This document shows, in pieces, positions 22,401 to 63,600 of a stretch of 64,000 bases of DNA (its first letter is position 1; every line of letters begins with the position of its first letter). This DNA is from Branchiostoma floridae. Its lineage: Eukaryota > Chordata > Leptocardii > Amphioxiformes > Branchiostomatidae. The notes beneath the pieces are model-generated. The model had not been told where the DNA came from and made no database searches. It saw only the letters and a list, made by a program, of their open reading frames with translations. The stretch is taken from assembly GCF_000003815.2 (NCBI RefSeq), contig NC_049997.1:6537204-6601203 (forward strand), given 5' to 3'. The translations under genes and the position numbers were made by a program.

Positions 22401-25400
22401 TCAGGTCTGTTGCATAGTTCTTTTTGCAGGATCCGTGTTTACTTAAATGGGCTGTACTACATGGTGAATGAATAAGGTGAAATAATATGGTGTCTTCTTT
22501 GTCTCACTTTAAATTTCTTCAATATAGTAAAACTGACAGTGTCAAACTGACAGTGTGTAAATGTCAGAAAAATCCTGTAAGCCCTCACATAACTGTTAAA
22601 GAAATCTATTACAAGGTTAACTTGGTGCACCAAAGAGAAACTGCTAGCTATGGTATAACGAAGTTTATAGAATATCCAGAAATATGATATTAAGTAAAAT
22701 AAGTCTTAATGCAGCTATCCCACCTTCACAACCATGTCCATCTGACATCAACACGAAGCCCTGTCGACATGAACAGGTATAATTTCCTGGAAACTTCGTG
22801 CAGTTTTGTGCACACCCGCCATTATTTGTTGCACATTCGTCCACTGCAAAACGTTCAGAATACGAACGAGACAATCAGTATCGGAATATTGCCTTAAAGT
22901 CCTCAAATGAACAGAAGTGGTTGAAAATAAGGCTTGGAATTTAAAAGGAAAGGAAAGTACTGTTGCCTTAACCTACACATGACATTATTACATGCATATT
23001 TAAAAAAGAAGTACTTTGACAGTTCATAAATAAGATCAGTAATGAAGAACTGTATGGAAAAACGAACACAAGACAGTTGTCTACTGAAATTGCCATCAGA
23101 AGACTGAAATGGTTGGGCCATGTTCTACGGATGTCGGATGACCGTATTCCCAAAGTTGCTCTACATTGGGTCCCTGAGGAGAAGAGAAAACGGGGACGTC
23201 CTAAAACTACATGGAGTCGTACTGTGGCTAAAGACCTAGCGGCCATTGGGATCCCCTGGGATGCTGCTCAGCGCCTAGCACATAACAGAACCCAGTGGAG
23301 GAAACTTATCACAGCCTTATGTCCCACATGGGATGAAGAGGATAAGTGAAGTGAAGTGAAGTGATGACAGTTTCTCACCTTCACAACCATGACCATCCGC
23401 CATTAATGAGAAACCCTGTGGGCAGATACATCTATGACCGCTCTGTGTGTGAATACATCTATGGGCACAGCCTCCGTTTCCTGATCCACATTCATTGTTA
23501 TCTGTAGAGAGCAAAGAGTACAATTTTTGAAGCATACATTATTGTATGCAGGTGTTGCACCATGGTCGATATGATACCATCTGATCACCAAAGAGAGTTT
23601 TGATATCGATTCAACCTAGAACTGGAAAGGCAACATCCCTCGTACCATGTAAAAATACTGTTTTGAAAATCACCCCTGTGCAAAAAAGCAACATTCCAAA
23701 GTAACTCCTGCCCCAAATGAAACTATTTCAAAGTTATTCCTGTCTGAAATGGAAGATTTCCCAATGTGACCCCTATGCGAGAATGGGTCCTATGGGAGAG
23801 GGAACCAATCAATGAGTGAAATTGAATTTAGAAAATATTCAAAAATAAGCTCTTCCAGCGTCACCCCCATGTGAAATGGACCAGTCCAAAATAACTTTAA
23901 ATAACCTAAGATCACCCCAGTCCTAAACACAGCTTTCCCAATTTGAACCCCCTCAATGGACTCTTCCAGAATACCTGTTTTTGGTCTAAATTGGGTAAAA
24001 GTCCATGCATGCCAAAATTGCATTTTTAATGTATTGTAAACATGCATTCCAAATGTCTAATTCCATATCACTCGTTTGCAATATGATGGTACAGGAGGCG
24101 AAAAAAACACATTCTAAGTCACTTGTGCCAAACACCAGGTCATTTGGCGTAAAAATGACAAAGATCAATCATCGATAGTTTTAGTTATCATTGTCCAACA
24201 CTAACCTACTGAGCTTGGTGCACACAATGTGTACACAATCCTGTCTCCGGTCCCATTTGACGAAAAAACTGCCTCTGTGCTGCGCAAGCCTTTTTCGGTC
24301 CTTTGTATCTGACGCTTGCACCAGTTTTGACAGCTGTAAAAGCCGAAACTCCTGCCCCTTGTTGCCCCAGCTGAGAAAGCCAGGTTGGCCACCTCAGCTA
24401 CACGGCCGGATATGGTGAGCGTACACCTGAGCACGTTATTGATGTAGGGGTCGGAGTTGTACGTGGTCACGCATCTGGAAACACAATAATAATAAGAAAG
24501 TTTATTTGCAAGTTCTTGCCCTAGGGCTAATTACAACATAAACATACAGAATATATAGTAAATATACATAAAATAAAATACTTTGATATAGATAATAATG
24601 GTGACAAGTGGAAACAAGTGCCTATTTTAGCAATAATATGGGCAGCTTTAATAATATTTGAGTTTATTTGCAAAATCATGCCCGAAGGCTAATTGCACGT
24701 ACAGTCGTCTCAAAGTAAGAGAAGTCATTCAGTACATAACATTGGTTTCTAATCTACTACAAGGTGCTAAGGTTACTATTGTAGGGTTTGGCTTCTTCTT
24801 TGAAGGCAGTGGTTAATGAAATCTCCCACTTTCTGCAAAATATCCTCAGGTATCTCGTCAACAGATATCACTTGCTCCTCTCCATCAAAAGATTACAGAA
24901 TACAGGACCGCCAGGGATGGGGAAGATGTTGCGCATGAGAATTAACATCCTTGAGGCAGGCAACTCAGAAAAATGATGAGGGGACATTTACCAAGTAAAA
25001 ATACAAGACCGCACAATATGGCATCCGAAAATAATTTCATCAGGTTGGTAGAATATAGGGTGTCTCTCAGACACCTTCCTCAGAAGCTCTGATGAAGGTG
25101 TCTGAGAGACATCGAAACATAAGCAAAGTAAGTGCATCTGGTTGACTGTGTAAAATAATTCTCCTATATCGCACACTATGGCTGTTTTACATATCGCAGA
25201 TCTTACTTTATGAAGTTCTGGTGGACCTGCCTCCCACCCTCGACTGCCCAGCTTTCCCCACAACCTGTTGGTCTCCTTCCGTACTTTGCACAGAGGTTTC
25301 GGTAGTCCCAACACCAGTTCTCAGTGGCAGACAGGCCGTCGACTGGCAGCTTCGCCTCGATGGCGAGGAAGTCGATTCCTTCATACTGCTGGTTTGCAGT

Positions 25401-28400
25401 ACGGAGGACCTCAAAAGCATGGATGTCTGATGAGAAAACAGACAAATACAAAATGTACCTTCATCTGCTTGGAGCTCTTAACGTGATGCCATGACAATAA
25501 ACAAACTCACACTTTATGACCTACGGGACTTAAATGTTTGTCAATTTTGAACATAACGATGTAAATTGAAATCTAAAATGTCATCTTTGAAAAGTATTTT
25601 TCGTTAGCCTAAGGATGCATCTAATTTTCTTAGCAACTCTAGACAAAAATCAATGAAAACGAAGAGCCTGAGTTCTGCAGTGACTGTAACAGCAGCGATA
25701 CTGGTCGATCCAAAACTCTGAAACGGTTTAATCTACATCAAAATTAAACATAATCTTCTGCTCACTCCACCCAATCAAAGATATCAGACTGACAATGTGT
25801 CTTCCTACACTGACATTACCTAGCATCGCCATTGCAAGATTGCTACTCGCTGTTATGTAGGGACGTTCATGGAATTTGTAGATATGGTACTGATTAGAAT
25901 TACTGATTGGTACACAATGCAATGGACCGATCCTGTCGAACGCCATATCGAACAGATAGAACCCCCTATTCTATTTCGAACACCTCCGTCAAAAACTGCC
26001 ACAGTGGGACAGAAATGGCTATTCTTGACGGAGGTGTTCGAAATAGAACCATGATCGAACAGGGGGCGGGGTTTTGGGATCGGTCCATTATCCCACCTTC
26101 ACAATCACGTTCATTTGCCGTCAACCCGAATCCCTGCAGACAAGAACAGGTGTAACCTCCTGGGACATTGGTGCAATTGTGGGCACAGCCGCCATTGTTT
26201 GCTGCACATTCATCTTCTGCAAAGAGTTCAAAATATAGACAAGACAATCATTATTGGCTTAAAGTCGTCAGACGAAAAAAAAACCATTACTATCATATCA
26301 AAAGTAAAGCTCATGCCTGGTAGTAATCACCGGGACTTTAATGCATGCCAATCCTGAATAAATTATTTAAAAGCCTTAAAAATCATATTTGAAAACAAAC
26401 AAAAAATACAGCGATTCGGTTTCCTTTAATCTTTGTAACGCTAGTTCACCTTTATCCGTGGGGTAACCTATATCCGTTGTTTTCCAAAACGGTATTTAGG
26501 CACATCAAGCTGACGGGTGGTAGTTTTAGACTGTAATGTACTGAAAAAATTGCAATTTGAAACCAACGTCCGTCGACGTGATATCCCCATACGCCGTTTT
26601 TAACAGCAACGGCACAGGTTAGCCAACGGATAAAGGTGAACTAGCGTTAACAGTTCTATGTATATATTTTTTGAATACATGTGTATTCTTTGCTTACTTA
26701 ACTCAATCATATCATATCAGTCTGACAGGCAGTAAGTATAAGAAGCATCAAATCCTTCCAATAGCCTGTTTAATGCTTTTTAATGCTTGCAGGATGTAAT
26801 TTTGAATTGTAATGTGTACTTGTGATTGATACGTTTAAAGAACAATTCTTTATCTTAATTTTAGACACTTGTATATGATGTACTAGATACAGTCAAATGT
26901 TGATAATAGTAAAAAATTTTAATGATGTAAAAAAACATTTGTGTACCAGTCCAATTCAGTGCACGAGTTTTGTGCACTGCGATGCTGTGTATTTTGTACA
27001 AGAATGCAAGAAAGAATGATAAACCATTACTACTACTACTACTACTTAATAATCTGCTACTAGCTCTGATGTAGAGATATGTTTTGAATATCATATTTTC
27101 TCCTGGCTTGGGTTGATGTGGTTCGCCATACCTACATATCTAAATATACATTGAGTAATATCAATCACAACATAATTACCCCCACCTTCACAACCATGCT
27201 CATCTGACATCAACACGAATCCATGTGGACAGGAACATGTGTAACCTCCTGGGACATTGGTGCAGTTTTGGGCGCACCCGCCATTGTTTGTTGCACATTC
27301 GTCTTCTGCAAAGAGTTCAGAATACAGAAGAGACAATCAGTATTGCCTAAGTCCGCAAATGAACACACGGCTGAGATAGTGGATAATAATAATAATAGTT
27401 GACCTGGTGAGCAAATATTATTTGGGATCAAAAAGCTACATACTACGTACAGCTCACCAAAGCTAAGAACTGTTCGTCGTGTCAACATACCCATGACGCT
27501 ATTATGCCCCCTTCACACGAGAGCACGAATGAGCCGGAATGTCGTCGGAATTAAAATTATTTTCTATTCCTGGCAATTCCTGGCGATACGTAGTGTGTTC
27601 CAGAAATTCTAACTGCATTCCAGCTATTTGTGCCCGTTCTTTTAGCTGGCTCGAAAGTTTTTGATATGTTAAAAACTGTCGAGGTGTATTCGAAGTGGAT
27701 AAATATCGAATGGCATGCGTAGTGGATTCTAAGTGTATTTTCACTATTCTAACTGCAGTCTGACCGCCTTCTACGGCATTCCAACATTATTCGAAACATT
27801 CTGATCTCATTCGATGGAGAACCGAAACGAAAAGCCACCTCGAATCCTGCCAGAATGTGACCGAAAGAATATCTGGAATGCAGTGAGAATGTCTAGAATA
27901 TACTACGAATTTACATGAATAGAACAGAATATTCATTCTGACGGTATTTGACTCATTCCTTCTCGTGTGAAGGTCCATTTGGAATTCCCACCTGAATGGC
28001 CCCGGATGTGGCACGAATTTTGCCAATACTTCATTCCGGCTGGTTATGATTGATTCCTGCTGATTCGGTTTCAGTGTGAAGGCCCTATTACATGGGCACT
28101 GTAAAAATAGCAACGTAACACTAGTTTCTCACCGTCACAACTATGGCCATCCGCCATCAATATAAAGCCCTCTGGGCAGATACACCTGTGTCCGGTCTGA
28201 TTGTGGATACATACATGGGTACAGCCGCCGTTTCCTGTTCCACATTCATCATTGTCTATGGAGAGTAAAGAGCAGGTTAAGCATTCATTTATTGGATGCA
28301 GCTGATGTACCCTAGTCCAAAGTGCAAATGACTGAAACTTGGAGAGTCGCGACGGAGAGGAGCACGGGCCTAAGCACTTAGGCAGGTAGGCAGATTTACG

Positions 28401-31400
28401 TATACCTTAACCGATCCTCCTCCCATTTTATCCCGGACGAGCTCTATGTTTCAAATTAAAAAGCCCCGTACTACGTTTGGTGGTGCAGTCACTATGAGTA
28501 AATCACAAATGGATGATGGTTGAACTGGTAATTAAAAAAGTATGGAATTTACATGGATACGTTTTCACAGTACACAACTGGTTGTCAGATGGAAGCTACT
28601 TGGATCAGGAGATCCAATTCAGTTACGAACCGTAATGAGAGGGATATATATAAAAATTACTTTACATTTGGGACCACAAGTGCAATCTGCGACACCTATG
28701 CTGCAATGCTATTAATTTTAAACAGTTAGAATTGCCCTGGGGAAGATGAAAGACGATTTATGGAAAATAACCTTATTCTTGTTATTTTATGAAACTGTGA
28801 ACGGAGTGCTGTGAATAGTTAGTGGTACCAAACCGCTTTACCGCCCGTTAACCAAGTCCTTACCCACTGAGCCTGTACACACGGTGTATACAATCCTGTC
28901 TCCGGTCCCGTCTGAGGCAAAGGCTCCTTCCGTGGTTTTCAGACCTAGCCGACTCACGTATATCCCACGTTGGCAGTCGGCAAGGTGGCCCCTGTAGAAG
29001 CCGAAACTCCTCTGCTCTGTGGCCCCTGCTGAGAAGGCTAAGTTCGCTACAGCAGCTACACCAACGTTCGGGGGACAGCCGAGCACGTTGTTGGTGTAGG
29101 GATCTGAGTTGTAGTCAGACACCAACCTGAAAAAAGTTGCATTTCTAAGATATCTTAACAATTGGTAACACGTGGCACCGGAAATATACAGCCCTACATT
29201 GACTTTTGAAGAGGATCATGTCCATAATATTACAAACAACAGAGGCAAAATAAGCCATATGGTATTTTTTGTCGATAAATCTGGTTTCACACCAAATCTT
29301 TAAGGCTAAATATCATTCCTTGATATTGTAATTTTTAGCAACTCGAACATGGAGTTCAACAATTAAATTCATTATAAGTAGTTGTCGTGGTTATCAAGCA
29401 AAAGGATTGGTCCAGCGGTCACTACGGAGGCTAACACTCTGACTGAGTACTATCTGCTGCTAGCACAAATGACAAAATGTAGATTACTGATAACACACAG
29501 AATAACGATCCAATATGTCACAGATCCTACCGCTCTGTCCCTGCCCACAGTCCGTCTGCATCCTCCCCACAGCCCGTAGGTCTCATTCCGTACTCTGCAC
29601 AGAGGTTCTGGTAGTCGATGCACCAGTTCTCAGTGGCAGACAGGCCGTCAGCCGGTAGCTTTGCCTCGATGACGAAGAAGTCGATTCCTTCATACTGGAT
29701 GTTTGCAGTCCGGTTAACCTCAAAGGCGTAGATTTCTGTTGAGAAAACGGAATTTAAGTTCGCATAAACAACGTCATTGATAACCAGGCTCTGGGGGAGG
29801 AATGTAAGACGAGAAATAACAATAATCTGTGAGTGATTACTATCATGTAATATCCCATGAAAAGTAAAAAAAAGCACATAACTTGTAGGAACTACTGGGA
29901 CTTAAATGTATGCCAACTATGATGATAATCTACGAAAATGATCTACGAAAGATCAGCCTGACACTTACAATAACCTGTCTATCAATCTGTTACGACTAGC
30001 TATGATATAGTAGGCCCTGAGTACCATCCTCCGTAGTGACCGCTGTCTCAATGCTTTCGCTTGCTAACCACGAAGTTTGGACCTGCGCGCATCCCTGACG
30101 GTTGGAAATTATCTCACGTAATGAGATAATTCAGCTGTGCACTCTAGGCGGGGCCTCACCTGAGAGACCGAAAGCGAAGGTATTGTGCCAGTGGTCACTT
30201 CGGAGGATGGTACTCAGGCTAATGATATGGAGAAATTCATTGAATGTCTAAATATGATAGTAATTAAACTTAACCATAATACAATCATCGTACCTTCACA
30301 ACCATGCTCATCTGCCATCAACACGAAGCCCTGTCTACAAGAGCAGGTGTAATTTCCTGGGACCTTCGTACAGCTTTGGGCGCACCCACCATTGTTTGTT
30401 GCACATTCGTCTTCTGCAAATAATTAAAAAGAAAAGACAAAGGTCGTTGGTTAACAGTTACCAAATAAACACATCGCTGACCTAGTGATAAGTTTATGTT
30501 CAGAATTTACATTAAGTTTCTTTTTATCAAGAGGTGCACAGATACAAATTTATAAGTGTTAGAAAGATTAGAACTATCAAAAGAACAAAACTTTGCATTA
30601 GCACATGCAAATTTTGAAAAAAAATACAGTGAAACTGTTTCTCACCTTCACAGCTATGACCATCCGGCATTAATATGAAGCCCTGTCGGCAGGTACAACT
30701 GTAGCTGCTCTGATTGTGGACACATATATGGCCACACCCACAGTTTTCTGTAGTATATTCATTATTATCAACAGAAGAACGGGGTTAAGCATACATTATT
30801 GTAACTGGTTGTTACATCAATAAGAATACATCTACCATGCAGTTGAGATGTATACATAACAACAATTTATTACTTGGTTCACCATCATGGAAATTTGCGA
30901 ATACAGAGCTTGTGGGAACAACATTGAAATATACCGTAATTACGTCATTGGTTCGTTAAATTTCTGTTATCATGTGATGGATAAAGAAGGAAGTGAAACA
31001 ACTGGGAATAGGGATTCTGGGGCCACCTCCTTTCATCCCAAAACCATTTTGCAATTTTATAATTGCTTATTTCTATATTGATATATTCGTATTTGTACAT
31101 TCGTATATGTGGCTGGAGGATGCAAATCCAAGGTAAGTTGGCGTAATTAGTGCCAAATCCTTACCTGCGTATCCTGTGCACACGGTGTGCACAGTCCTGT
31201 CTCCGGTTCCGTCACTACCAAATGATGTCACGGTTAGACTCCAATGGCTCTCGTGTATCCCACGCTGGCAGAGCGTTGGTCTACAATCGTTAAACCCAAA
31301 ACTATTGGAATTTAAAGCTCCGGCTGAGAAAGCCATGTTTGCGACCTCAGCTACACGCACGTACGGTTCACACCCGAGCACGTTGTTGATGTAGGGGTCA

Positions 31401-34400
31401 GAGTTGTACTCACTCACGCACCTGAAACACAACAACATTTTTATGATATCTTACCAATTGATAGCTCTGGCAATGTCGCTGATTAACTTAATCAATCGTA
31501 AAGACAATAATCGGTTGACTGCCTGGTAACTCAGAAATCATAAGAATGTATGTACTAATCATTACTTTTGCAAAATTTCTAAGAACGTCACTTTGTAAGG
31601 TTTGTGAAATCATTACACTATCCTGGGGTATACAATGGATGAAATAAGATGAGATTATGCAAACCTCATGATTTACAAAACACTACCATATTTAAATACA
31701 AGATGGTGCAATGATAACTAAAATATGTACCTGACTGTTATCAATGTTACAAATGCCTATACCCAAGCAGAGAAAACCAGATATAATTTACTACCAGCGC
31801 TCAGTATGACTGTTCTAAATGTCACAGAACCTACCGGATTCTGCCGGGGATGCTGTTGGTCCCGCCTTCGACTGCCCTGTCCTCCCCACAGCCCGTTGGT
31901 CTCCTTCCATACTCGGCGCAGAGGTTCTGGTAGTCCCGGCACCAGTTCTCAGTGGCAGACAGGCCGTGAGCTGGCAGCCTGGCCTTGATAACGAAGAAGT
32001 CGACTCCTCCATATTGCTGGTTTGCAGTACGGAGGATCTCAAAGGAATGGTTTCCTGGTAAGAAAAACGGAACTTCTAATAGTAACGCTAAACACCAAGA
32101 AAAATGACTTTTCTTTATCGATTTCGCGAGAAAGGTTCTATTTACATTGTTTTCACCCCATACACTCGTATTTACTGATTTCTACGAGCCATAATGTTCA
32201 TTTCTTAAAAAAACACCCCTGTAGTCCAAAATGACGCTCCTAGATCATAAACGTCTGCGAGGTCTTTCGATTACAAATAGTCTCTACCACCAAATTCTTA
32301 AATTTGCATGTTCAGATTAGATCACTTAATAGGAGGTTCCGCCACTAAGGTCCTCAACAAAGCATCATTTATCAAGAACTAAATGGGACCCGATGGGACC
32401 TAAGACAAATACAGTAACTATGAAAATCCCCCCAAAGTCTTTCGAGTTAGGCTGTTCAACCATGCACAAGTAAACCCAACCACACTACCGAAATTTGCAC
32501 CTTCATTGCAAAAAACCTTACTCAACTTGAAGTATATTTCAACGGCTCAGTTTCTAACGTTGGATTTACAGCATCTTACTCTTAAATACATTCGCATTGT
32601 TGGAAACAGCGCGGGACAATAAAACCCTGGCAGAACTATCTCCTGTTTTGTGCTGACTGCATCTTTGCTGTACTTTGGACATGTACTGGACAAAACATAA
32701 CTACCAATTCGAAAGTATTGAGCAAACACTTACCAGTGGAAGTTATGTCTGAAGGCCGTTTCGAAAAAGAATAAATTGGTCAATATGTGTGAATTATTTC
32801 CCCAGTCTATCATGCAATCAACAAAAAATCTTTCTGACTAAAAACTATTATCTAACAACTATAGGTCTATTAGTTAGCTGGACAATACCATAGAAAGTAA
32901 AAGTCACCGAAATGTTTTACAATACAATAAACAACATTTATTCAATTTAGTACGTGAACAATTAGAACAAATCACAGTGCAACAGTTTCCCACCTTCGCA
33001 GCCATGACCATCCGCCATTAAAATGAAGCCCCGTCGGCAGGTACACCTGTGGCCGGTCTGGGTGTGGGCGCAGAAATGGGCACATCCACCGTTTTCTGTT
33101 GCACATTCATCATTGCCTGTAGAGTAAAGAGCACGGGTAAGACAAAAATTTTGTTCTATTCTTGAGTTAGCCTCTTCGGAATTTTTTTACAAAAATTCCC
33201 CTGCTACTTTAACCCTAGTCGCTTGTAGGCCCATACTCACTCCTTGCCGAGCACAAGAACTATCTAACACTTAAACATCGTGACCATAGCTTGTTTGTAC
33301 ATGAGATATGAGGCCAGAAGCAGCACCAAGGTAAGCCGCTAGGGGGCCAAAATCTAATCATGCATTTATAGTTTTGGTCACGCCCTACCAACACACTAAG
33401 TATGTAACCAATCCATCCAGCCGTTCTTGAGTTATCCTGTTCCTGCAGAAAGACAGACAGAGGTGGTGGAGCAAGAGTCTACCTGCGTGGCATAAGCAAA
33501 ATAATAACAACTAATATATAACTGAAGATTGGAGTTCTCACAACTATTGGACTAAAGACATGCTAGAGGGAGGAAGGCCTTGGTGGCTTCCAGAGTCAGT
33601 CAGAGAAGAAGAAGAATTAGTGCCAAATCCTTACCTGCGTATCCTGTGCACACGGTGTACACAGTCCTGTGTCCGGTCCCGTCACCACCAAATGATGTCT
33701 GGGTAGAGTGTAGACTGTATCTGCTCTCGTATATCCCACGCTGGCAGTGGTTACAGTAGTTAAAGCCAAAACTCGTGCTCCTTGTAGCTCCAGCTGAAAA
33801 AGCCAAGTTTGCCACCGCAGCTACACGGCTGCTCGGGCCACAGCCGAGCACGTTGTTGATGTAGGGGTCAGAGTTGTAATCACTTACACACCTGGAAACA
33901 CAACATCTTTAAGTTACCTCACGAATGCATTGGCAACACTTCTTCCAATTTACCAGGAACTCGTAAATCATCACGCTTTTCTGAGGGTATACAATGATTA
34001 TGCAAAAGCCTTTCATCCTTTACAAGACATTAATGCATTTAAGTGGATGAATGGTCCAACAATATATTATATGAACTAAAATATGTACATCGTACCTGAC
34101 TGACTTACGTTCCATTTATTGAATTTTCCCATTCCCATATCCAGCATAGAAAACAAGATAGGATTTACTCCCAGCGCACAGTAAGGCTGTTCTAAATATC
34201 ACAGAAACTACCGGATTCTGTTGGGGTTGCTGTTAGTCCCACCCTCGACTGCCCAGTCCTCCCCACAGCCCGTTGGTCTCCTTCCGTACTCGGCACAGAG
34301 GTTCTGGTAGTCCCTGCACCAGTTCTCAGTGGCAGACAGGCCGTGAACTGGCAGCTTCGCCTCGATAACGAGGAAGTCGATTCCTTCATACTCCTGGGAG

Positions 34401-37400
34401 ATGAAGTCGTTTCCTTTATACGTCTTGTTTGCAGTACGAAAAACCTCGAATGAGTGGTTTCCTGGCAAGAATGCAAAAATAATTGATAACTATTTTGACA
34501 TCAATTTTCTTTATTTATTATGTTGAGTTTATACCAATAATTTGAATCCTATTATGTTAATATTTGCTACATTTATTGCAATGTTTACGGATCTCCTGTT
34601 TTGTTGACTGCATCTTTACTGGAATACTTTGGACATGCACTGGACAGATTTTCAAGAATTTAGCAAAACTTACCAGTTGAAACTATGTCTCTAAGCAGTG
34701 GAAAAGAAGAGACAAATTTGTTAGTAATTGTGTATTATATTCCCAAGAGTAATTACCTATAAAAGTTATGAATTAAATCAAACAAATATAATGAAACAAG
34801 TTTAGGGTAACTGTTTTGTTGGCCACAATACAGAGAGTGAAATATAATCTAAATTGTCACATTACATCCATATTGTGAACTGATTACAGTGAAACGGTTT
34901 CTCACATTCACAGCCATGGCCATCCGCCATTAAAATGAAGCCCCGTCGGCAGGTACACTTGTGTCCGCTCTGTGTGTGGGCACAGAAATGGGCACATCCG
35001 CCGTTTTCTGTTGCGCATTCATTATTGCCTGTAGAGAAAAAGAAAACAGCTAAGAAATACACGACTATAATCAGCTTGAGTGATGTCATTTCGTTCACTT
35101 GATACCATTGAGATTTTAAATGGGACAAGGGCGTGTTTTCGGTAGCTAATGAAAGAAACTTTCCACCAACCTTCACACGCCGACCAGTAAGACCCCCCCT
35201 CCACCGTCCGTTCAATTACTTTTGATACTTTATTCAACCCATTAGCTACCATACCTCAATTTGTAGGTAGCTAGTCTTCCTGGATTTCAAGACGTTAAAA
35301 CAGGACGTACAAACTACATACAATTTTTACAACTGGTATTTACAGGGTATAATTACGGTCTGGTCAAGCAAGAAGACTACTACTTATTGTATGCTTTTTG
35401 AACGATTGGCTACTTGTATATTTGTATAGGAATATTGGTTCATATTTCCGTATTTGTGGTGTAAGTTATAAACACCATCGGTGCCAAATCCTTACCTGCC
35501 GATCCTGCACACACGGTGTAAACAATCCTGTCTACGTCTCCGGTCCCGTCCCTGCCAAACGCATACCATGTAGAGGGTAGACTGGCATGAGCAGTACTGC
35601 TCTCGTATATCCCACGCTGGCAGGTGTTGGTGCCACACCTGTTAAAGCCGAAACTTCTGTACCTTGAAATTCCAGCAGGGAAAGCTAAGTTCGCCACCGC
35701 AGCTACGCGATCAGGCAAATAGCTACAGTCGAGAACGTTGTTGATGTAGGGATCGGAGTCATACTCAGTTACACATCTGGAACACATTTTTAAGATATTT
35801 TAATCATTGGCAACACTCGCTCCATTTTAACAAATGTTATAGCACTCTGGTTGATTAATTTTGGCTGACGTCCAGCAAGAATGTACTTAATAGTATAATG
35901 TCACTAATCTAGCCCACGCTAAAGACAATGGAGGACACATTGTCATTGTGTATATAAATCTGGATTCACGCAAATTATTTACCGTGAAACAACGATCATT
36001 TCTTTGCATCATTTTTTTTGTAGACGGTCCGTCAACTAATTCATTCACAAGAACGTATTTACTTGTATAATTCCTTTTTTTTTGCAAACAGGCTATTTTT
36101 CTTATGGAATATATATCACCACACCTTTCTGGCTTCCGAAATGGAAAGATACAGAATGATGGTGCACACACCTCATTTTATCATTAACTAAACAATGATG
36201 AATTTGAACCTAGGTTATTCTAGCAATGTTTATAACTAAAATATGGACCAGACTGACTTATCTTTCCTTTTATTTGTTTTTCAAATCCGCAGCCCGATGG
36301 CACACAAAGTTTTGCCTGCACGTGAAGTTCTACGGCGTGTCTGCGTGCCCCAAAATCCGTCGGATTGCCTACGAGATTGTACGGAGGCGGTACTTACCAC
36401 TTACGGATCCCAAAAGATTGCCCACGTTTTGGCACGTAGACAGCACGTATTTGCACGTACGGCGAATTGTGCCCTTAACTTTATGGCTATTCTACGTATC
36501 ACGGATCCTACCCGATTCTGTCTTCGTCGCTACTAGCCCCATCCTGGACTGCCCAGTCCTCCCCACAGCCCGTAGGTCTCCTTCCGTACTCTGCGCAGAG
36601 GTTCTGGTAGTCCCTGCACCAGTTCTCAGTGGCAGACAGACCGTCAGGTGGCAACTTCGCCTCGATGACGAGGAAGTCAATTCCTTCATACTCCTGGGAA
36701 ATGAAGTCGTATCCTTTATACGTCTGGTTTGCGGTACGGAGGACCTCAAAGGAGTGGTTTCCTGATGAAAAAGGAAGCTATGTTAGTACTAACACCAGTA
36801 GACACCAGTATATCAATCTAGTTTTGCTTACATAACTCAAATAGTTGAAGCTCATGAAACATCTAGATATGTTAGTAAGTAAAACGAAATCATGATACAA
36901 TTAGCGTACCTTTACAACCATGCTCATCTGGCATCAACACGAATCCATGTCTACAAGAACAGGTGTAAGCTCCTGGGATCTTGGTGCAGTTGTGGGCACA
37001 CCCGCCATTGTTAGTTGCACATTCGTCCACTGCAAAAATTTTAAAATACAGGCGTGATAAAGACTATCGCTTAAAGGTCCTGAAAGGAACATAAATGGAT
37101 TGACCTGATGAGGAAATGATGTTTGGAATTTAAAAGATACAGCTCGCCAAAACCATTCACAAGCATTATTGATCATCATTATTTTTACATATGCATATTG
37201 TGGAAAATTGCAATGAAATGAAATAGTTTCTTACCTTCACAACCATGACCATCTGCCATTAGTGCGAATCCCAGACGACAAATGCACCTGTGTCCGCTCT
37301 GAGTATGGATACATCTATATGCACACCCGCCGTTTCCTGTTCCACATTCATCGTTACCTGTGTAGAGTAAAGAGCACAGTTACAAGGCATGTATTTTTGA

Positions 37401-49400: not shown

Positions 49401-52400
49401 CTCATTCCAATAGGACTCTTCGTTCCGTTACCTGGGGGAGCCAGCGTCGGGCATTGCACAACTGAAATGATAAACAAGTGTTGATCAGTTAAAACATCTG
49501 TTATGGGACACGCAATTATACAACAGATGTAAGAAGGTGGATCGCTCTCTCCTTCCTCTACAATCCCTCTTCTGACACGGAACGGCCGTGCTACCGCACA
49601 AGTATAGGTCGTCGTCGTGTGTGGCGTATCACTGGTAGAGCGTTCGGTTCGGAATCTAGAGGTCCCGAGTTCGATACCCGCCGTGCCGCCGACGTTGTGC
49701 CCTTTGGAAAGGCACATAACACGACCTTCCTCACTTCACCCAGGTGTAAAAATTGGTACCTCACTTCAGTCGGGGAGGTAAAAGAAAAGATTACCTTTAT
49801 TACCTTCTGCCTGCACTGCTAATATAAATTACAAAGTTGAGTGCAGTGCCACATTGTCCTCGTCTGTCCAAAAGCAAATAGAAAAAAGTATAGGTCTAGC
49901 ATGAATAAACAAATGTTAGTTAAATATTTCGTTTAGCCATGCCTTCTCGACAACATTTCTATAAACTATTGCAAAGACGCAATTTGTGTACCACGGTATT
50001 GTGTCTGTGCGGCAAAAAATCAGTTGAATCAGTGTTCCTTTATATTTGTACAAAAAAAGACTGAAAACTATCTTACATCGACATGTTGGAACAGGCTCAC
50101 TCCAATTCCGGCTAGCCTGGCATCTCGCAACAGAGGCTCCTTCCAACACGTACTTGTAGTTGCAGGCGAACGTCACTTCGTCATTGTAGGTATTTGCTCC
50201 GGTAGGGCTCAACGTTCCGTTTTCTGGGGGAGTCAGCGTCGGACATTTTGCAGCTGAAATAATAAAGAAGTGTTCATCGCGTGTATCTTAAATGCAAATT
50301 TAGTGTCTGTTGTGCTGGAACATTCATATACTGGAGATATGGAAACTTAATCTTTACCTAACTTGGCGCGGGAGAGGGCTAATAGGACTATTCTACAAAG
50401 TCTGCTTGTGCAGAGTCCCGTGTCTTATACATACCCTGCTCTACACAGTGCATCTTGCCCAACAACAATGTAATGCTATGCAGTGGCTCTCCCTCCCAAA
50501 ACAACTATACTCGCCTGAAAACCGTCCCTGTAACATATAAGCCATACTTTGTACCTTGTACAATTGTTGTGCAATAAAGTTATTATTGTAACTAATAAGC
50601 GAGGCTCGGGCGATTGCCGCAGATTCATCGTCCGATCGATTTTCGCCAAATGTGACATGGGTATTAGGGCAAAAACTTACCAGAACCTGCACACACGGTG
50701 TACACAATGTGGGTTCCGGACCTGTCCCTTCTATACGAGTTTCCTGTGTAGGGCAGACTAGACCAATCGCTGCACTCGACTATATAACGTCTGCAGCGAT
50801 TGGTACCGCAGGCGTCAAAGCCGAAACTACTTGACGTTGAAACGGATGTGGAGAAGGCCAAGTTCGCCACCTCAGCTACGCCGGTGTTCGGGCGACAGCC
50901 AAGTGCGTCGTTGATGTAGGGGTCGGAGTTATACACAGTCACACACCTAGAAAAAAGAAACATTAAGAGATTTCGCAAAGGTTACTAACATTTGCCCCGT
51001 TTGTGCATCCAGCACCATATTCGTTACATTACGATATTATAGAGCACACTACTACTGTGTCACAAGATCTACATTCAGACCAAATGTCCTAGGATGGACA
51101 GTGATTCCTATACTTTGAGTCAAGTAAAGTTGAACATCAAGTCATCAAGTAAAGTTGAAACCTATCAGCAGGCAATGACCGTAACAGCGCACGGTATGGC
51201 TCTTCTGAATATCACAGAACCTACCGGGCCGCTTCAGAACCCTCAACCGTTGCTTGTCTCTCCCCACATCCAGTTGGTCTCCTTCCGTACCCTGCACAGA
51301 GGTTCCGGTAGTCCCAGCACCAGTCCGAGTTGTTAGACAGGCCGTGAGCAGGCAGCTTTGCCTCGATGACGAGGAAGTCGACTCCTTGATACTGCTGATC
51401 TGCGGTACGGAGGACCTTAAAGTTGTGGTGTCCTGAAGATGAGAAAAACGCAACTTATACTGATGTAAGGACGTTTGGCACTTTGTGTAAATTTTATGTA
51501 TTATAAAATGAAAATAAGTGTAGCAAGAAAAACTTCTTTTTGCATAATGTGTATCCCATTATGTTGTTCACGTGTATTTATTATTGCTACTAGCCAAACA
51601 AATTCAGCTCTTATCAGTAACCTGTCTCTGCGTTTTAAAAACATCACAGTGACTGTATTTGACCACGCCGTTAGGGGCATACATTGCTGGCACTGTTTTC
51701 GAGTTTCTTTTGCTGAAATTGTGGGCATTGGGCGCTATTACATGCCAAAAGCATAAAACAGCACGTTACGCGTATACCGTATAAGTAGAAATCTATTCAC
51801 ATGCTTTTGGCTTTACAGAACTCTCTTCTGTTTGTGATAACTGCATATTTACGTATTTTCGTATTTCTACTTTACAGAAAACACGTATTATGAAGTAAAA
51901 ACTTACCAGGTGAAGGTGGAGTGAAGAAATATACTGGAAAAAGAGTTCAGTTTGTCAGTATATTTTAACTATGTCCGTCAGTCCGAGAGTAAAGGTTATT
52001 CAACTGTAAAGTGAAAACAACCATGGCTTATTTCACTCCATCTCTCTTTCCAGGTAATAAAACGTAACTGTCCAAAATCACCCCTGTGAAAAGATGAAAC
52101 ATTCCAAAATAGCTTTCACTTATGAGTGAATTGTTACCAAATTATCCAACTCTGAAATAAACCATACCGTGTTGACCTCTTTACATGAATTGTCACACCG
52201 TTGGAGATAATGGAGACTTGAACATTTTGCTCAGTATTCCAAGTTATCGTAAGACAGAAACTTTGAAAACCTTCTGAATTTGTTCTTATAGAGTTGTTCA
52301 TACGTGGACTATTGCAAATGACTGTGTCTATACCACCGTGTTCTTTCTGCAGAAAAACAACATTTTAACTCAGTGTTCCAAGATATTTGTACAAAAAAAG

Positions 52401-54470: not shown

Positions 54471-54533
<63 letters not shown>

Positions 54534-54547
54534 AAGCAATAATATTG

Positions 54548-54581
<34 letters not shown>

Positions 54582-54602
54582 CAATGGCAGAACACAGGTA
54601 TG

Positions 54603-54652
<50 letters not shown>

Positions 54653-57535
54653 GTGACAAATATATATATATATCATAAGTGCCAAATACTTGCCTGAGCC
54701 TGCGCACACGGTGTATACAACCCTTGTTCCTGTCCTGTCACTCCTATAGGCGTTTGATGTAAAGGTTAGACTTTCTCGGTTGTTGTATATATATTTGTCG
54801 CACCGACCGTTTGCAGGTTTACAATCGTTAAGGCCGAAACTACTGTGCGTTGAAACGGAAATTGAGAAAGCCAAGTTCGCCAACTCGGCTACGCGGACGT
54901 TCGGGCGACAGCCGAGTACGTTGTTGATGTAGGGATCGGAGTTGTACACAGTCATACACCTGGAGAAAGCAACATGTTAAAGATGCCTCAGGGTTTGCTA
55001 ACACTTGCTCCGTTTGAGTATCTGTGCATCAACATTGCGTTTATGAAGATTAACAAATAGTAAAATACAACTTAGTCTCCTCAATTGGATAAAACAGAGA
55101 CTTACTTCGGATGTTTCTAGTGACATCCATCACTCTTCTTCAGTGTCACTAGAATGAACTAGTGACGCGCTGAAGAAGAGTGATGCATGTCATACACAGT
55201 TGTAGAGATTGAATCTTATTCGAAGAAAGTTGAACATTAATAGATATACTGCATACGCATATAACCATGCACAAATAGCCTTCTTTTCTAACATAAGACT
55301 TTAACACTTGAATAACAGTATACTGCTTCTGTACCACATGTATATCTCCAATACATGTTGTAAAGAACAGCATTTTTCGTTGAAATGTGACATCACCACA
55401 CCTTTTTTGGCTATGTAATGGGTAAAACGTAGATTAGTGATGATACAAATCGTATTTTGCATTTGAAATAAAATTCAACTGATATTCAAAACTGACATAT
55501 GTTCAAGACAAACTAACAGTATTTGTTTCTAATTCCTATACGGTAACCTCCGAACTTTTCAGCATCAGGATCCTTAACCGCGCACAATATGGCTGTTTAC
55601 ATGTCACAGAACCTACCAGTGCGCGCCCCAACCCTCAACTAGTGCGTGGTTCTCCCCAATGGCTATCAATGTTAAAAATGCCTATACCCAAGAAGAGAAA
55701 ACCAGATAGAATTTACTACCAGCGCTCAGTATGACTGTTGTAAATGTCACAGAACCTACCGGATTCTGCCGGGGTGGCTGTAACTCCCACCCTCGACAGC
55801 CCCGTCCTCCCCACAGCCAGTTGGTCTCCTTCCGTACCCTGCACAAAGGTTTCGGTAGTCCCAGCACCAGTTGGAATTGTTAGACAGACCGTGAGCCGGC
55901 AGCTTTGCCTCGATGACGAGGAAGTCTATCCCTCTATACTGCTGATCTGCGGTGCGGAGGACCTCAAAGTTGTGGTGTTCTGAGCCTGAGAAAAACGCAA
56001 CTTATACTGGTGTTAGGTCGTTTGACACTTAGATTAAACATGGCCTATTCCATGTTGTAAGTAAGACCTCTGTCTACATAATTTATATAATATATATGTA
56101 TGTATATTATGTTTACGTCAGCTATTCCTACCAGCCAAAGAAAGCCAGGTCTTGTCCATAATCTAGATTGTAAAGTTAAGTTTTAAAAACATCACTGCGT
56201 TACTAGTATATAAATTTGCTAACCACTCTGCTAGGGGCATAAACATCTGGAACTGCCTTTGAGTGTAAAAGTTCCCTTTAATTTTGAACGTAGGACACTA
56301 TCACATGCCCAGGCTATCGAAACAAAATGTTCCGCAACAACGGGACCGGTTGTCAACACCGTACCAAATCAAATACTGCAGAAATCTATTCACAGGCTTT
56401 TGGGTCTTAGCTGAACTATCTTCTGTTTATGTTAATTGAATATTTACATAAAAGTTTCCACTGTCTCGAGCTCGTATTTTTGAAGCAAAAACTTACCAGG
56501 TGCAGGTGGGGTGAAGAAATATGCTGGAAAAAGAGAGTTAAATTTGTCAGTTTATTTGAAATGTGTCCGTCGGTCTAATCATCTCTAAAAAAATCACCTA
56601 TCAAACCAAACAACTATCATTTAAAAACTTTGGATCTATTGACAACATTCGTCAAGGTGAGGGTCACTCAAAGATAATGCAGAAAGAATTGCAAGCAAAT
56701 ATGGCTTATTTCACTCCATATCTCTTTCCAAACAAAAATTAACTGATCAGAAATCACTCCTGTCCAAAATAGCAACAAAAAAAAGCCGTATTATAAAGAT
56801 TGAATTTGTGCAAAGTCAAATCACTCTGACCGTACCAGCTGGACCGTACCCAAGTTGACCTCTGTAGACTGTACATGAATTGTCAAACCATTTGATACCT
56901 ATTACATTTCGCTCAATATGTCAACATTATGTATCGTCAGACAGAGGCACTGTAGCGTCATTCTTAACGTTAAAAGTGTTTTTGATGTGGATAGTTCCTG
57001 ACAAGTTCTGATGTTTCTGTATCTGCAGAAAAGGAAGCTTAAGACATTAAACCACTGTTTTTTGCTGGATATTTGTATAAGAAAAGACTGAAAACTTCCT
57101 TACGTATGCATGTTGGAACAGGGTCGCTCCAAGTTTGGTCCGCCTGACACGTCACAGTAAAGGCTCCTAACAAGTAGTACCCCTGGTTACAGCCGAACGT
57201 GGCCTCGTCTCTGTAGTAGTAGTTCACTCCGGCAGGACTCAGCGTTCCGTTACCTGGGGGAGCCAGCGTCGGGCATTGTACAACTGAAATGACAAATATA
57301 TTCAGGATACCGTACTGTGTAAAGCTCCTGAACCAAGACGGGTAATTTGTGAACAGTAGTGAATCTTTCTTTGTGTAATAACTGACCAATCATTGTAAAC
57401 AAGTGGATGTTATTTTGTCACTCGATCCTTTTAATTGTGTTAACTAGTTAGAGGTTGAAATACTGACTGTAAAGAAAATGACAATTCAGCCTTTTCTAAA
57501 TGTGCTGCAAGAGTTTTTGATGTCAATGGCAATAA

Positions 57536-57609
<74 letters not shown>

Positions 57610-60600
57610 GTTGATCAAGTGCATTTTGTTAAAAACTTTGAAGGGGGAATAACTGACCATAGGGGCGACAGATTTCAATGGTATTCGTCATGCCAAGACA
57701 GAGACTACACAATGTGAAGTAGATTAGGGATTAATTTCCAAAATAAATGAGGAAAGTTTATATGTTCGCTATAACCGCTATTAGTACACTGTGACAGCTA
57801 TATATAGCATCGGGTTAATAGTTATCTTGTTGTCCTATAATGTGGACAATCTAAACACAGTTCCTTACTTCATTTGTTTCTTGTACATAGATCGCTCAAA
57901 CAATTAGACTCAAATCATGCAAATGATTAAACGATGGCAAAACGTGTCTAATTACTAAAAAAAATAACATCTAGTAATTACTTACATCGACATGTTGGAA
58001 CAGGGTGACTCCAATTCCGACTAGCCTGGCACCTCGCACCAGACGCTCCTTCCAACACGAACTTCTGGTTACAGGCGAACGTCACCTCGTTGTTGTAGGA
58101 GTTCTCTCCGGTAGGGCTCAGCGTTCCGTTATCTGGGGGAGTCAGCGTCGGACATTTTGCGGCTGAAATGATAATTATAAAGTGTTTATCAAGTGCATTT
58201 TTATCGTATCACCTGTTTAGCGGGAACCATATGTTTTAAGAAGAGTTGTTTTCTCTCTTGTTCAATTTCTCCTTCTTAAGCCGCACACAGAATGAGTAAG
58301 ACGAGAAGGGCAATAAATCAACACAGGTATAGGTTAGGCATTTAGTCATACATTAATTGATTTTATCAAGGCAGCCAAGTGTTACCAATAGGCTACCATT
58401 TCTTAACAGTCGGTAGTGCCAGAACTTACCAGAACCTGCACACACGGTGTATACAATGTGGGTTCCGGACCTGTCCCCTCTATAGGAATTTCCTGTGTAG
58501 GGCAGACTAGTCCGTTCGCTGCTCTCGACTATATAACGTCTGCAGCGATAGGAACTACAGGCGTTAAAGCCGAAACTACTTGACGTTGAAACGGATGTTG
58601 AGAAGGCCAAGTTCGCCACCTCAGCTACGCCGGTGTTCGGCCGACAGCCGAGTACGTCGTTGATGTAGGGGTCGGAGTTATACACAGTCACACACCTGGA
58701 GAAAAGAAACATTTTAGAGGCATCGCAACGGGAACTAATACTCGGTTCATCTGAGTACCAGGGCATAGCACCATATCCGTCACTTTACTCACACTAAAGA
58801 CAATATTGAGCACGTTGTGTCACTAGATCTATAGTCAGATCAACTATTCAAGGATGAACAGTGATTTCCATACTTTAGGTTGAGTAAAGGTTAACATTGC
58901 CTTTATGAAGGTTAGACATCAAATATTAGAATAAACCTCAGTCTTATCAACTAGATAAAAACGGAGAGTTACTTCGGACGTTTCGAGTGACACCCATCAC
59001 TCTTCTTGGCAGTTCATTCTAGTGACGCTGAAGGAGAGTGATGGATGTCATACCCAGTTGTAGAGCTTGAATCTTATTTGAAGAAAGTTGAACATAAGGT
59101 ATTTCACCTGGCTAAATTGGCATTTTGACCTTCCATTGTTTTCTCATTATTGAATTAATAAAGAATGGAGCCTCAACGAATTCTGATAGATGGGCATGAA
59201 AGAATTACAGATTTGATTTTTTTGGCCATATGGATGACGTCATCAGGTTTTATTGCACTTAATATTATTTTACTATGAGAAAATACAGCACTTTGGTACA
59301 TACCACTGCAATGAAACTATGTTTTTCTTGCGCATAATGATGAAAGCTACAAACTCACGGTTGCGCAAATTGATATCTTCTAATGATCTTTAGTAATTAG
59401 AAACTTATTGTTTTCATGTAATTAAAACATCATTTTCTAATACATGTAATTACAGATCAGTAGAAGATTTGCGCAAAGAGATGAAAGGCCCAGAGGCGTG
59501 TACAGTGGAGGGCGATCATCGGTGACCTATGCTACGACCAGGGAAAAGGGCCCAAGTAAAGTAAAGTAAAGTAAAGTAAAGTAAGTACATATCACAGAAC
59601 CTACCGGTTCCCTTGAGAACCCTCAATCGTTGCTTGTCTCTCCCCACAGCCCGTTGGTCTCCTTCCGTACCCTGCACAGAGGTTCCGGTAGTCCCAGCAC
59701 CAGTCGGAGTTGTTAGACAGACCGTTAGCCGGCAGCTTCGCCTCGATGACGAGGAAGTCGACCCCTTCATACTGCTGGTCGGCAGTACGAAGGACCTTGA
59801 AGTTGTGGTATCCTGAAGATGAGAAACAACGCAACTTAAACTGGTGTAACTGTAAGGACGTTTGACACAAATAAAACATATACATAATATGTACATAATT
59901 ATGTATATACACATATTTAATCTATGTATGATGTATCTGATGTAATTATAGTGTGATTTTTTTGTAATCTTTCTGGCATGTCCGTTATGTGATATTGTAT
60001 TGACATATTTTACTAGTATGTGGAGGACCACAGGAAGGATCATCTAAGCTAACAGAAGCTAATTGTGGATCCAAATAAAGTCAAAGTCAAAACAAGTCCT
60101 ATTCCATGTCGCTAGTAAGATCTCTATTTATATAATTTATATCCTATTATGTTTACACATACATTTTAATTATTTCTACCAGCCAAACAAATTCGGGTCT
60201 TATCCATAATCTACTAGTAGTTTGTAGGTTTTAAAAACATCACTGCATTTGCAAACCACGCCGCTAGGGGTATATAGTGTTTTGCATGTCTTTCCAGTAC
60301 AAAAGTTGCTTTACCGAAATTGTGAATGTAGGCCGCTATGACATACCCAAAGTACCAAACAGCACGTTCCACAACTAAGGACAAGTTGTCAACACCAACA
60401 AAATTAAATACCGTACAAATCTATTGACAGGCTCTTGCGTCTTTAACTGCATATTTACGTTTTTTTCGTATTTCTACTTTACAGAAAAACTCGTATTTAC
60501 GAAGTAAAAACTTACCAGGTGAAGGTGTAGTGAAAAAATATGCTGAAAGAAAAGAGTTAAGTTTGTCAGTATATTTTACTTGTGTCCGTTGGTCTTATCA

Positions 60601-63600
60601 TCTCTAAGATCATCTATCAAATTAAACACAAACAACTATCATTTACCAACTCTTGATTTATTGACAATAATCCTAAACATTAAGGTCATCCAACTGTAAA
60701 GTAGAAAGGCAAGATTACAAAGATGGCCTATTCCCCTCCATACTGATATCTCATTCAGGACAAAACCCAACTGTTCAAAATCACCCACGTGAAAAATGAA
60801 ACATTTCAAAATTGCTCGCGCTTAAGGTAAATTACTGCAAAGTCACACCACTATGAATTGGACCTTTCCCAATTTTACCCCTATACAAAATGGTGAAAGA
60901 GAGAGGAGAAAATGGAGACATGAACATTTTGCTCAGTATTCCAATTTCATATCTTAAAACAGAGGCACTGTAACATAATTCCATAACGTTGAAAATTTTC
61001 TATATTTGTTTATGACAAGTTCTTATAGAGTTGTTCATACGTGAACTTTTGCAAATGACTGTGTCTATACCACCGTGTTCTTTCTGCAGAAAACAAGATT
61101 TAACTCAGTGTTCCAAGATATTTGTACAAACTGTCTTACGTATGCATGTTGGAACAGGGTCGCTCCAAGTTTGGTCCGCCTGACACGTCACAGTAAAGGC
61201 TCCTAACAAGTAGTACCCCTGGTTACAGCCGAACGTCGCCTCGTCTCTGTAGTAGGACACTCCGGTAGGACTCAGGGTACCGTTACCTGGGGGATCCAGC
61301 GTCGGGCATTGCACAACTGAAATGATGAATAAATGTTGATCAAGTGCATTTTGTTAAAATCTTTCAAGGGGTATAACTGCCCAAAGGGATGACAGATTTT
61401 AATAGTATTTGGCATGCTATTAGCCTGGATAGAGATTACACCATGTGATGCAAATTAGCACATATTTTGCATAATAAATGACAAAAATTGATGTGTTCAC
61501 TATAATTGCTATCTGGATGCAGTCTTGAGGCAAACATCTGGCATGTTGTAAACGATTCAAACACAGTTGAATGTTTCTGAAAAATTCTTATTTGAGTTGT
61601 TTTTGCGTGGACTATTGTAAGGACGCCAGTTATTTTCTGTACCTTGTTCTGTGGGAAAAATAAGTCTTAAAATCTAATCTTAGTAAAGTCTCAAGTCTCC
61701 AAGTCATAGATATTTGAAAAGAAAAATATCTTACATCGACATGTTGGAACAGGGTTGCTCCAATTCCGGTTAGCCTGGCACCTCGCACCAGACGCTCCTT
61801 CCAACACGAACTTCTGGTTACAGGTGAACGTCACCTCGTCATTGTAGGAGTTCAGTCCGACAGGACTTAAGGTTCCGTTATCCGGGGGAGCCAGCATTGG
61901 ACACGGGGCAGCTGAAATTGCAAACAAGTGTTGATCAAGTGTGTGATTGTTAACCCTATTCAGACGCCGCGGAGGAGGGGTGGTACTGTTGGGGGACAGC
62001 AAGAAAATTTCGTCTCAAATAACGCCAGGTGAGGTTTCCTAAAATTAGTTGAAGACATTTTCACAAATTTTGAAAAAAATCCCATTTTTTGTGTTTTCAT
62101 TGTAAACGTTTGGGCCGGGCCCAGGTTTGGAAATGTATTGTAGGCTTAACCGGTGCTTTACGGTTGTTGATGGCTGTTTGTTTGTTTGTTTGTTTGTTTA
62201 TTGAGATCTCCATTAGACTTGACAATTTTTCTCCTAAACTCTGTATGTGTATGTGTTATCAACTACATGATGTGAGTGACTGAACAATCATAAGTGTGCC
62301 AAGTACTTACATGAACCTGCACACACGGTGTATACAATGTGGGTCCCAGACCTGTCCCCTCTGTAGGAGTTTCCTGTTTGGTACAGACCGACATTGCTGT
62401 TGACTATATAACGGTGGCAGCGGCCGGCGCCACAGGCGTTAAAGCCGAAACTACTTGACGTTGAAACGGGTGTTGAGAAGGCCAAGTTCGCCAACTCAGC
62501 TACGCGGACGTTCGGGCGACAGCCAAGTGCGTCGTTGATGTAGGGATCGGAGTTATACACAGTAACACACCTGGAGAAAAGAAACATTTTAGAGACATCG
62601 CAAAGGATGCTGACACTTGCCCCGTTTGATCATGAATGCCTGTGCATAGCACCATATCCGCCACTTTACACACACTTAAGACATTATTTAGCACAAAGTC
62701 AAAGTTATACTATGACATGTTCATCCATTACGCCTTTGCACCTCGTACAAACGTGTCTCTCTTGCTCCAGAGTTCACAAACTCACAAATCAAATAAGCAT
62801 TTAAGTCCTTCTATGAGGAAAATTGGAACTAAAGAATGTCCTTATCATTCGGGCAAAGCATTTTTCGTGACTTAGTGTAGATGATGATATAATATAGATC
62901 TCATTTAGCATGTACAAAAGATGAGCCATTGGCATTCATAACTGTCCACATGACGAACATTTTTTCTAATCAAGTCCTATACTTCAGAACATATCAGCAG
63001 GCACTGATCAGAAACAGTGCACAGAATAGCTATTCTAAATGTCACAGAGCCTACCGGATCGCTTCAGAACCCTCAACCGTTGCTTGTCTCTCCCCACAGC
63101 CCGTTGGTCTCCTTCCGTACCCTGCACAGAGGTTCCGGTAGTCCCAGCACCAGTCGGAGTTGTTAGACAGACCGTTAGCCGGCAGTTTGGCCTCGATGAC
63201 GAGGAAGTCGACCCCTTCATACTGCTGGTCGGCAGTACGAAGGACCTTGAAGTTGTGGTATCCTGAAGATGAGAAAAACTGGTGTAAGGATATTTCACAC
63301 AAATAAAACATGTACATATCCATATATACATATTTAATCTACATATGTATGATGTATCTGATGTAATTTTAGTGTCTTTCTGGCATGTCCGTTATGTGTA
63401 TATTTTACTAGTATGTGGAGGACCAAAGGAAGGATCATCTAAGCTAACAGAAGCTAATTGTGGATCCAAATAAAGTCAAAGTCAAAACATGTCCTATTCC
63501 AAGTCGCAAGTAAGACCTCAATTACTTTATATCCTATTATGTTGACACATACATTTTAATTATTTCTACCAGCCAAACAAATTCAGCTCTTATCCATAAT

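Follow-up and report, generated by a model that had tools for sequence, protein, structure and literature searches.

Domain architecture of a lancelet polycystin-1-like gene

We analyzed a 64,000 nt stretch of the lancelet Branchiostoma floridae genome (NC_049997.1, positions 6,537,204 to 6,601,203; hereafter the window), whose minus strand carries a gene with a polycystin-like channel core and, upstream of this core, many copies of an extracellular module encoded by two exons, A and B. Reading of the frames delimited 12 exon-A/exon-B pairs between 63262, the first base of the first exon A, and 24206, the last base of the twelfth exon B, and these boundaries agree with the span proposed in the initial annotation of this DNA. 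Internal stop codons are absent and the splice sites usable in 12/12 copies. Exon B of module 3 (54694, minus strand) has the GC-type donor GCAAGT, as opposed to GT in the other copies. Profiles of A and B recovered 12 A and 12 B exons, all on the minus strand, a recovery given by construction as they were trained on the same 12 copies, and had no match in three base-shuffled windows. Over the 66 pairs of copies, the ratio of nonsynonymous to synonymous substitution rates (dN/dS) was below 1 in every pair (median 0.46, maximum 0.81), which indicates that the coding reading is under constraint.

The phases of the introns were compared between the window copies and other copies in fetched DNA, excluding partial matches. 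The acceptor of exon A is in phase 1 in 41/41 exons and the donor of exon B in 38/41, allowing a shift of a few codons in both cases; by a strict test the acceptor of exon B is in phase 2 in 40/41 exons, and by a lax test the donor of exon A is in phase 2 in 41/41. The outer introns are thus in phase 1 on both borders (class 1-1), so that A and B together form a unit that could be shuffled, and the phase-2 junction between them fits an internal intron of one unit.

Across the 12 window copies, 43 alignment columns are invariant. Among the motifs, WCxDYxNLC is present in all 12 copies, whereas AxLAFS and VYTVC, which had been described as shared, and a further 12-residue motif each vary in a few; RRPTGCGE is broken in copy 5 (RRPGGC), which is shortened, and in copy 11 (MRPTGCGE). 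Likewise, the proposed three cysteines of exon A hold in 12/12 copies, but exactly five cysteines in exon B are found in only 9/12: copies 4 and 6 have six, and copy 11 has three.

The modules do not form a plain tandem array. A pattern search placed two Sushi/CCP matches after each of modules 1-5, an EGF and a CCP match after module 6, and between one and four EGF-like matches after each of modules 7-12; Pfam bore out all three intervening exons sampled, two as Sushi and one as EGF-like (FXa_inhibition). A 13th A/B pair lies upstream of the window at C19:6607364-6605609, and the 10 kb that contain it also have Sushi matches; the gene start was not found. The description as a bare 12-fold repeat therefore has to be given up in favour of a mosaic ectodomain with intervening Sushi and EGF exons.

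The earlier assignment of the gene is supported by Pfam: GPS before the first transmembrane helix, PLAT, and Polycystin_dom with the cation-channel segment PKD_channel identify it as polycystin-1-like. On unspliced DNA, GPS scored under its curated cut-off (E-value 2.7e-4) and PLAT was not found; both reached their cut-offs only with hand-joined exon pieces. PKD repeats were sought by signature: two W.[FWL]GDG-type signatures are absent from all six frames of the window. The REJ domain, by which the SpREJ subset of the family is defined, gave no match in the three minus-strand frames of one region (10-20 kb, exons unspliced). The module had been said to replace the PKD repeats; the lack of their signature fits this, but the modules share the ectodomain with Sushi, EGF and fn3 units. 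PKD repeats themselves are given for some PKD1-family members and not for others in PMC1934368. The window gene thus resembles polycystin-1/PKD1-like receptors, including SpREJ, in its C-terminal GPS, PLAT, Polycystin_dom and PKD_channel, in its mosaic ectodomain and in having several paralogues, of which the sea urchin has 10 (PMC1934368); it differs in the absence of the PKD-repeat signature, in the region without a REJ match, and in an ectodomain of unnamed modules with Sushi, EGF and fn3.

The module family and its linkage to a channel subfamily

The module is not private to this gene. We searched the genome (513 Mb, 431 contigs) with one module protein, which gave at least 153 exon matches (150 of 165 first-look candidates scored), and with a divergent module from C7, which gave at least 150 (150 of 166 scored). 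The first looks of both queries suggest that the family is of roughly this size. Merged from both searches, the at least 153 module exon places fall in 33 clusters; many but not all of these exons are upstream of channels that belong to a single PKD1-like subfamily, and their number varies from locus to locus. Mean pairwise identity among 39 modules was 0.62, with a minimum of 0.41. In a tree, window modules 0-5 grouped with four modules of a neighbouring gene at C19:6.39-6.41 Mb (100/100), and five modules from C4, C7 and C9 formed another group (86/95). Modules 8 and 9 and several opposite-strand modules at the neighbouring locus C19:6650643-6665875 share a duplication of 10 residues that lies in the first exon-A hairpin; being common to both loci, it is either older than the split of the genes or was exchanged between them.

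The A+B module shows linkage to a single, expanded PKD1-like subfamily. The last channel exon of the window has 24 close matches at 57-100% identity, after which identity drops to 48% or less, setting aside an additional piece (C19:6430921) of a gene already represented and two fragments on C12 (79 channel matches in total: 24 + 1 + 2 + 52). For 16 of the 24 subfamily channels, module exons are found on the same strand at 14-59 kb upstream, but for none of the 52 more distant matches of the same search (Fisher p 7e-11, a value overstated in that tandem neighbours make up many of the 24). With the C12 fragments taken as one channel, the count becomes 17/25. Genome-wide, at least 158 PKD_channel exon matches (150 of 400 first-look candidates scored) indicate a very large repertoire of polycystin channels.

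Clusters for which no channel is listed may in part belong to PKD1-like genes too, since module clusters on C15 and at C13:20.68 Mb have PLAT matches downstream of them. The two C9 loci (L049, C9:2.20 Mb; L050, C9:3.75 Mb) have VWA exons on the same strand within 10 kb, a proximity that perhaps reflects a second architecture for the module, and EGF exons lie near the C4 modules, on the same strand within a 10-kb piece.

The features of the window are collected in Table 1. Three further open frames were found. The frame at 23-493 on the plus strand contains a Death domain (PF00531, E 9.9e-15) and is probably an exon of another, opposite-strand gene. On the minus strand, a 353-residue frame at 52668-53726 matches RVT_1 (E 3.1e-11), a remnant of a mobile element that sits between the pair of Sushi matches following module 3, and a 369-residue frame at 1751-2857, downstream of the channel exons, had no Pfam match up to E 0.01.

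Table 1. Features of the polycystin-1-like gene in the window, in order of transcription
Feature	Position	Strand	Remarks
Module 1 exon A	63055..63262	-	phase 1-2
Module 1 exon B	62311..62570	-	phase 2-1
Sushi/CCP exon after module 1	61739..61903	-	pattern match; Pfam Sushi E 7.2e-11
Second CCP core after module 1	61239-61144	-	
Module 2 exon A	59605..59812	-	
Module 2 exon B	58430..58695	-	then CCP matches 58154-57990, 57203-57108
Module 3 exon A	55760..55979	-	
Module 3 exon B	54694..54959	-	then CCP matches 54174-54010, 52517-52422
Module 4 exon A	51225..51432	-	
Module 4 exon B	50681..50946	-	then CCP matches 50245-50081, 49453-49289
Module 5 exon A	48042..48237	-	
Module 5 exon B	47352..47611	-	then CCP 47144-46980, CCP end only 46200-46159
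Module 6 exon A	45158..45380	-	
Module 6 exon B	43153..43415	-	then EGF 41269-41162, CCP 40327-40157
Module 7 exon A	38764..38983	-	
Module 7 exon B	38039..38289	-	then EGF matches 37286-37239, 37021-36914
Module 8 exon A	36512..36761	-	internal 10-residue duplication
Module 8 exon B	35496..35776	-	then EGF end 34957-34910
Module 9 exon A	34212..34461	-	internal 10-residue duplication
Module 9 exon B	33635..33891	-	then EGF end 33045-32998
Module 10 exon A	31835..32054	-	
Module 10 exon B	31165..31421	-	then EGF matches 30697-30650, 30405-30298
Module 11 exon A	29531..29735	-	
Module 11 exon B	28864..29126	-	two Cys lost; then EGF 28184-28137, 27297-27190, 26208-26128
Module 12 exon A	25207..25426	-	
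Module 12 exon B	24206..24474	-	
Four EGF-like matches	20193..23430	-	pattern matches, starts 23430, 22835, 21054, 20300
Two fibronectin type III exons	17152..18328	-	Pfam fn3; open frames 18328-17963, 17580-17152
GPS motif and first transmembrane region	10001..10682 (approximate)	-	Pfam GPS E 9e-12, two hand-joined exon pieces
PLAT domain, three exon pieces	8654..9857 (approximate)	-	Pfam PLAT E 7.9e-9, hand-joined, predicted splicing
Polycystin_dom and PKD_channel exons	3827..6173	-	Pfam E 8.4e-25 and 3.7e-10

Relation of the module to known domain families

We compared the eight cysteine positions in the 39 modules. The 10-residue duplication had split three of the A exons, whose pieces we joined again by hand, and one module (C13:21867235) shows two gaps due to a partial exon-B match. 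Cys 1, 2, 7 and 8 are kept in 39/39 modules. Cys 3, 4, 5 and 6 are rarely lost, and two of the three true cases of loss are double losses: Cys 3 of exon A and Cys 5 of exon B are both gone in C13:21863135, and Cys 4 and Cys 6 are both gone in window copy 11. Since these cysteines vanish in pairs, this small sample suggests disulfide bridges 3-5, across the two exons, and 4-6. The odd number of cysteines in exon A and the two paired losses favour a single domain made of A and B. In the fetched DNA, 43/44 A exons are followed by a B exon on the same strand 263-1743 bp downstream, counting split or N-broken exons once each and two partial B matches as present; the sole exception, on C18, came from a 701-base piece.

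A structure was modelled from the read-through of copy 7 (314 residues, including 158 codons of intron). The mean predicted local distance difference test score (pLDDT) was 50.6, and 60/314 residues reached 70. Within the first 60 residues, where block means were 65-85, exon A was modelled as a beta-hairpin (residues 6-15 and 18-26) followed by a helix (38-48).

Pfam-A was scanned with two window copies, then with all 12, and then with 12 diverse copies chosen by eye (nine from outside the window and three window copies). In these 24 hmmscan runs, which covered 21 distinct modules and listed matches up to E 10 (the HMMER filters may drop weak ones), no credible match was obtained, in line with the initial annotation, which placed the module in no known family. 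Pfam includes the WSC, apple/PAN, SRCR, kringle and PKD repeat families, none of whose profiles matched the modules scanned, and for Lectin_C no profile match was listed for the 21 modules and no WIGL-like string lies in the module exons of the window; at the level of sequence profiles, the exclusion of these families in the initial annotation is thereby upheld. RtxA_C (E 0.0052) appeared in 1/12 members and was treated as chance, and zf-Tbcl_FmdE (0.051), LdpA_Fe-S-bd (0.14) and DUF5977 (0.37), also in 1/12 members each, were not credible. Against PDB sequences, the profiles of the window copies and of the diverse set gave nothing under E 0.88, the value of galectin-1 over 49 positions, which we took for chance, as we did 1adn (E 0.99) in a search with a single copy. 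NCBIfam gave nothing up to E 1. Prokaryotic and viral relatives were sought with two short patterns each, and none of the 63 pattern matches in prokaryote contigs or the 30 in virus contigs was confirmed. The titles and abstract openings of the literature matches listed contain no description of the module.

The module is thus unrecognised by the libraries used (Pfam-A, PDB sequences and NCBIfam), which falls short of proving a new domain. A lancelet genome paper reports 941 candidate novel domains that two lancelets have in common and vertebrates lack, the 375 most confident of which occur in 1,884 proteins (PMC4284660); the A+B module may be one of the 941. These candidates and ApeC (PF16977) are, like the module, extracellular, and they occur in lancelets but not in libraries centred on vertebrates. 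ApeC differs in having a Pfam entry, and it is not among the matches listed for the A+B modules.

The strongest alternative is that the module is a very divergent member of a known extracellular fold, such as a C-type-lectin-like or Link-like fold, that is invisible to sequence profiles; we regard this as a serious possibility, though somewhat doubtful. The modelled hairpin and helix of exon A, with W-C-x-D-Y-x-x-L-C-x-x-Y-G, loosely resembles by eye the start of a C-type lectin domain, and the final cysteine, in VYTVC, ends the presumed last strand. Set against this are the lack of any lectin or Link family up to E 10 in the filtered Pfam runs, the lack of a credible PDB chain for either profile set, and the WIGL-like strings of the window, none of which lies inside a module exon. 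The basic lectin fold also has fewer conserved cysteines than the A+B module. Some relatives of polycystin-1 do have C-type lectin domains (PMC1934368).

Possible role of the modules in the receptor

From the observed exon anatomy, the lack of a library match, the genome-wide family, the linkage to the channel subfamily and the coding constraint, we propose that A+B is one module which spread in PKD1-like receptors and acts as a binding unit feeding the channel. As a whole we consider this reading probable rather than assured, with the anatomy much surer than the function. A and B would form a single extracellular module of some 150 residues, stabilised by disulfides, whose two exons make a symmetric 1-1 cassette. 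The module would have spread and multiplied mainly within one polycystin-1-like receptor subfamily of this genome and, in alternation with Sushi and EGF units, would build up a long ectodomain there. The modules, with a conserved scaffold and variable loops, may be the binding units of this ectodomain and the Sushi and EGF units spacers giving reach; module copy number would then set avidity.

Binding or pulling would pass via the GPS-tethered stalk to the polycystin channel, a step modelled on the polycystin-1 lectin domain, so that ligand recognition feeding the channel is inferred by analogy. The N-terminus of polycystin-1 and its lectin domain activate the channel (PMC7728438). The likeness is in working only, that of an N-terminal unit that could bind a ligand and act on the channel; the module differs from Lectin_C in having neither a profile match nor a WIGL-like string. 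A second parallel is SpREJ1, a sea urchin sperm receptor of the PKD1 family, which binds an egg-jelly polymer and triggers the acrosome reaction (PMC1934368).

Several observations weigh against this reading. No module lies within 60 kb of 8/24 subfamily channels; conversely, for some modules the nearest 60 kb contain no channel of the subfamily, and these lie near VWA, which implies a role not tied to channels. Cys 5 was lost alone in C13:20688688, and paired loss was seen in two copies only. Exon B was modelled below pLDDT 50, in the query that carried the 158-codon intron read-through. The variable stretches could reflect drift. SpREJ1 is without the multi-pass channel part (PMC1934368), and is thus a precedent for binding and not for gating.

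Alternatively, the modules could be passive spacers or mechanical links and not binding units, which we think unlikely. In favour of this, Sushi and EGF units, between which the modules are interspersed, often serve as spacers, and loci vary in how many module exons they have. Among 38 modules (omitting C13:21867235, whose exon B is partly matched), 25 of 160 positions reach 2.5 bits of variability, of which 24 are confined to five stretches (59-67, 86-89, 105-106, 112-118 and 124-135 in module 1 numbering), the rest being a conserved frame. The conserved frame, the variable stretches and the eight well-kept cysteines resemble a folded domain with changeable loops, a pattern that is compatible with a spacer too.

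A still less probable view takes A and B for two small, unrelated domains travelling together. They sit on separate exons, and exon A was locally ordered in the model while exon B was not; however, B follows A in all but one of the fetched cases, their junction is in phase 2 and not phase 1, exon A has three cysteines, and one paired loss ties Cys 3 in A to Cys 5 in B. That the repeats have decayed, or are non-coding, and have no function, as the two cysteines missing from copy 11, the shortened copy 5 and the reverse-transcriptase fragment between module exons might indicate, is hardly credible given 12 stop-free copies, dN/dS below 1 throughout and preserved splice sites.

Our preferred reading of the module as a binding unit can be extended to a bolder proposal, which is speculative and, in our estimate, rather unlikely to hold in full: an undescribed fold would serve a whole cephalochordate repertoire of polycystin-linked receptors as its variable recognition unit, exon shuffling and tandem duplication having multiplied it much as they did immunoglobulin or lectin domains elsewhere. 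Should the module prove a real domain, about 75 copies in this genome (at least 153 exon matches) go unrecognised by the libraries used, and the ectodomain of a polycystin-1-like subfamily is unreadable by standard annotation. In that case, this lineage would have rebuilt the binding end of polycystin receptors with another domain, and the module would offer a compact, expressible unit for asking what such receptors bind.

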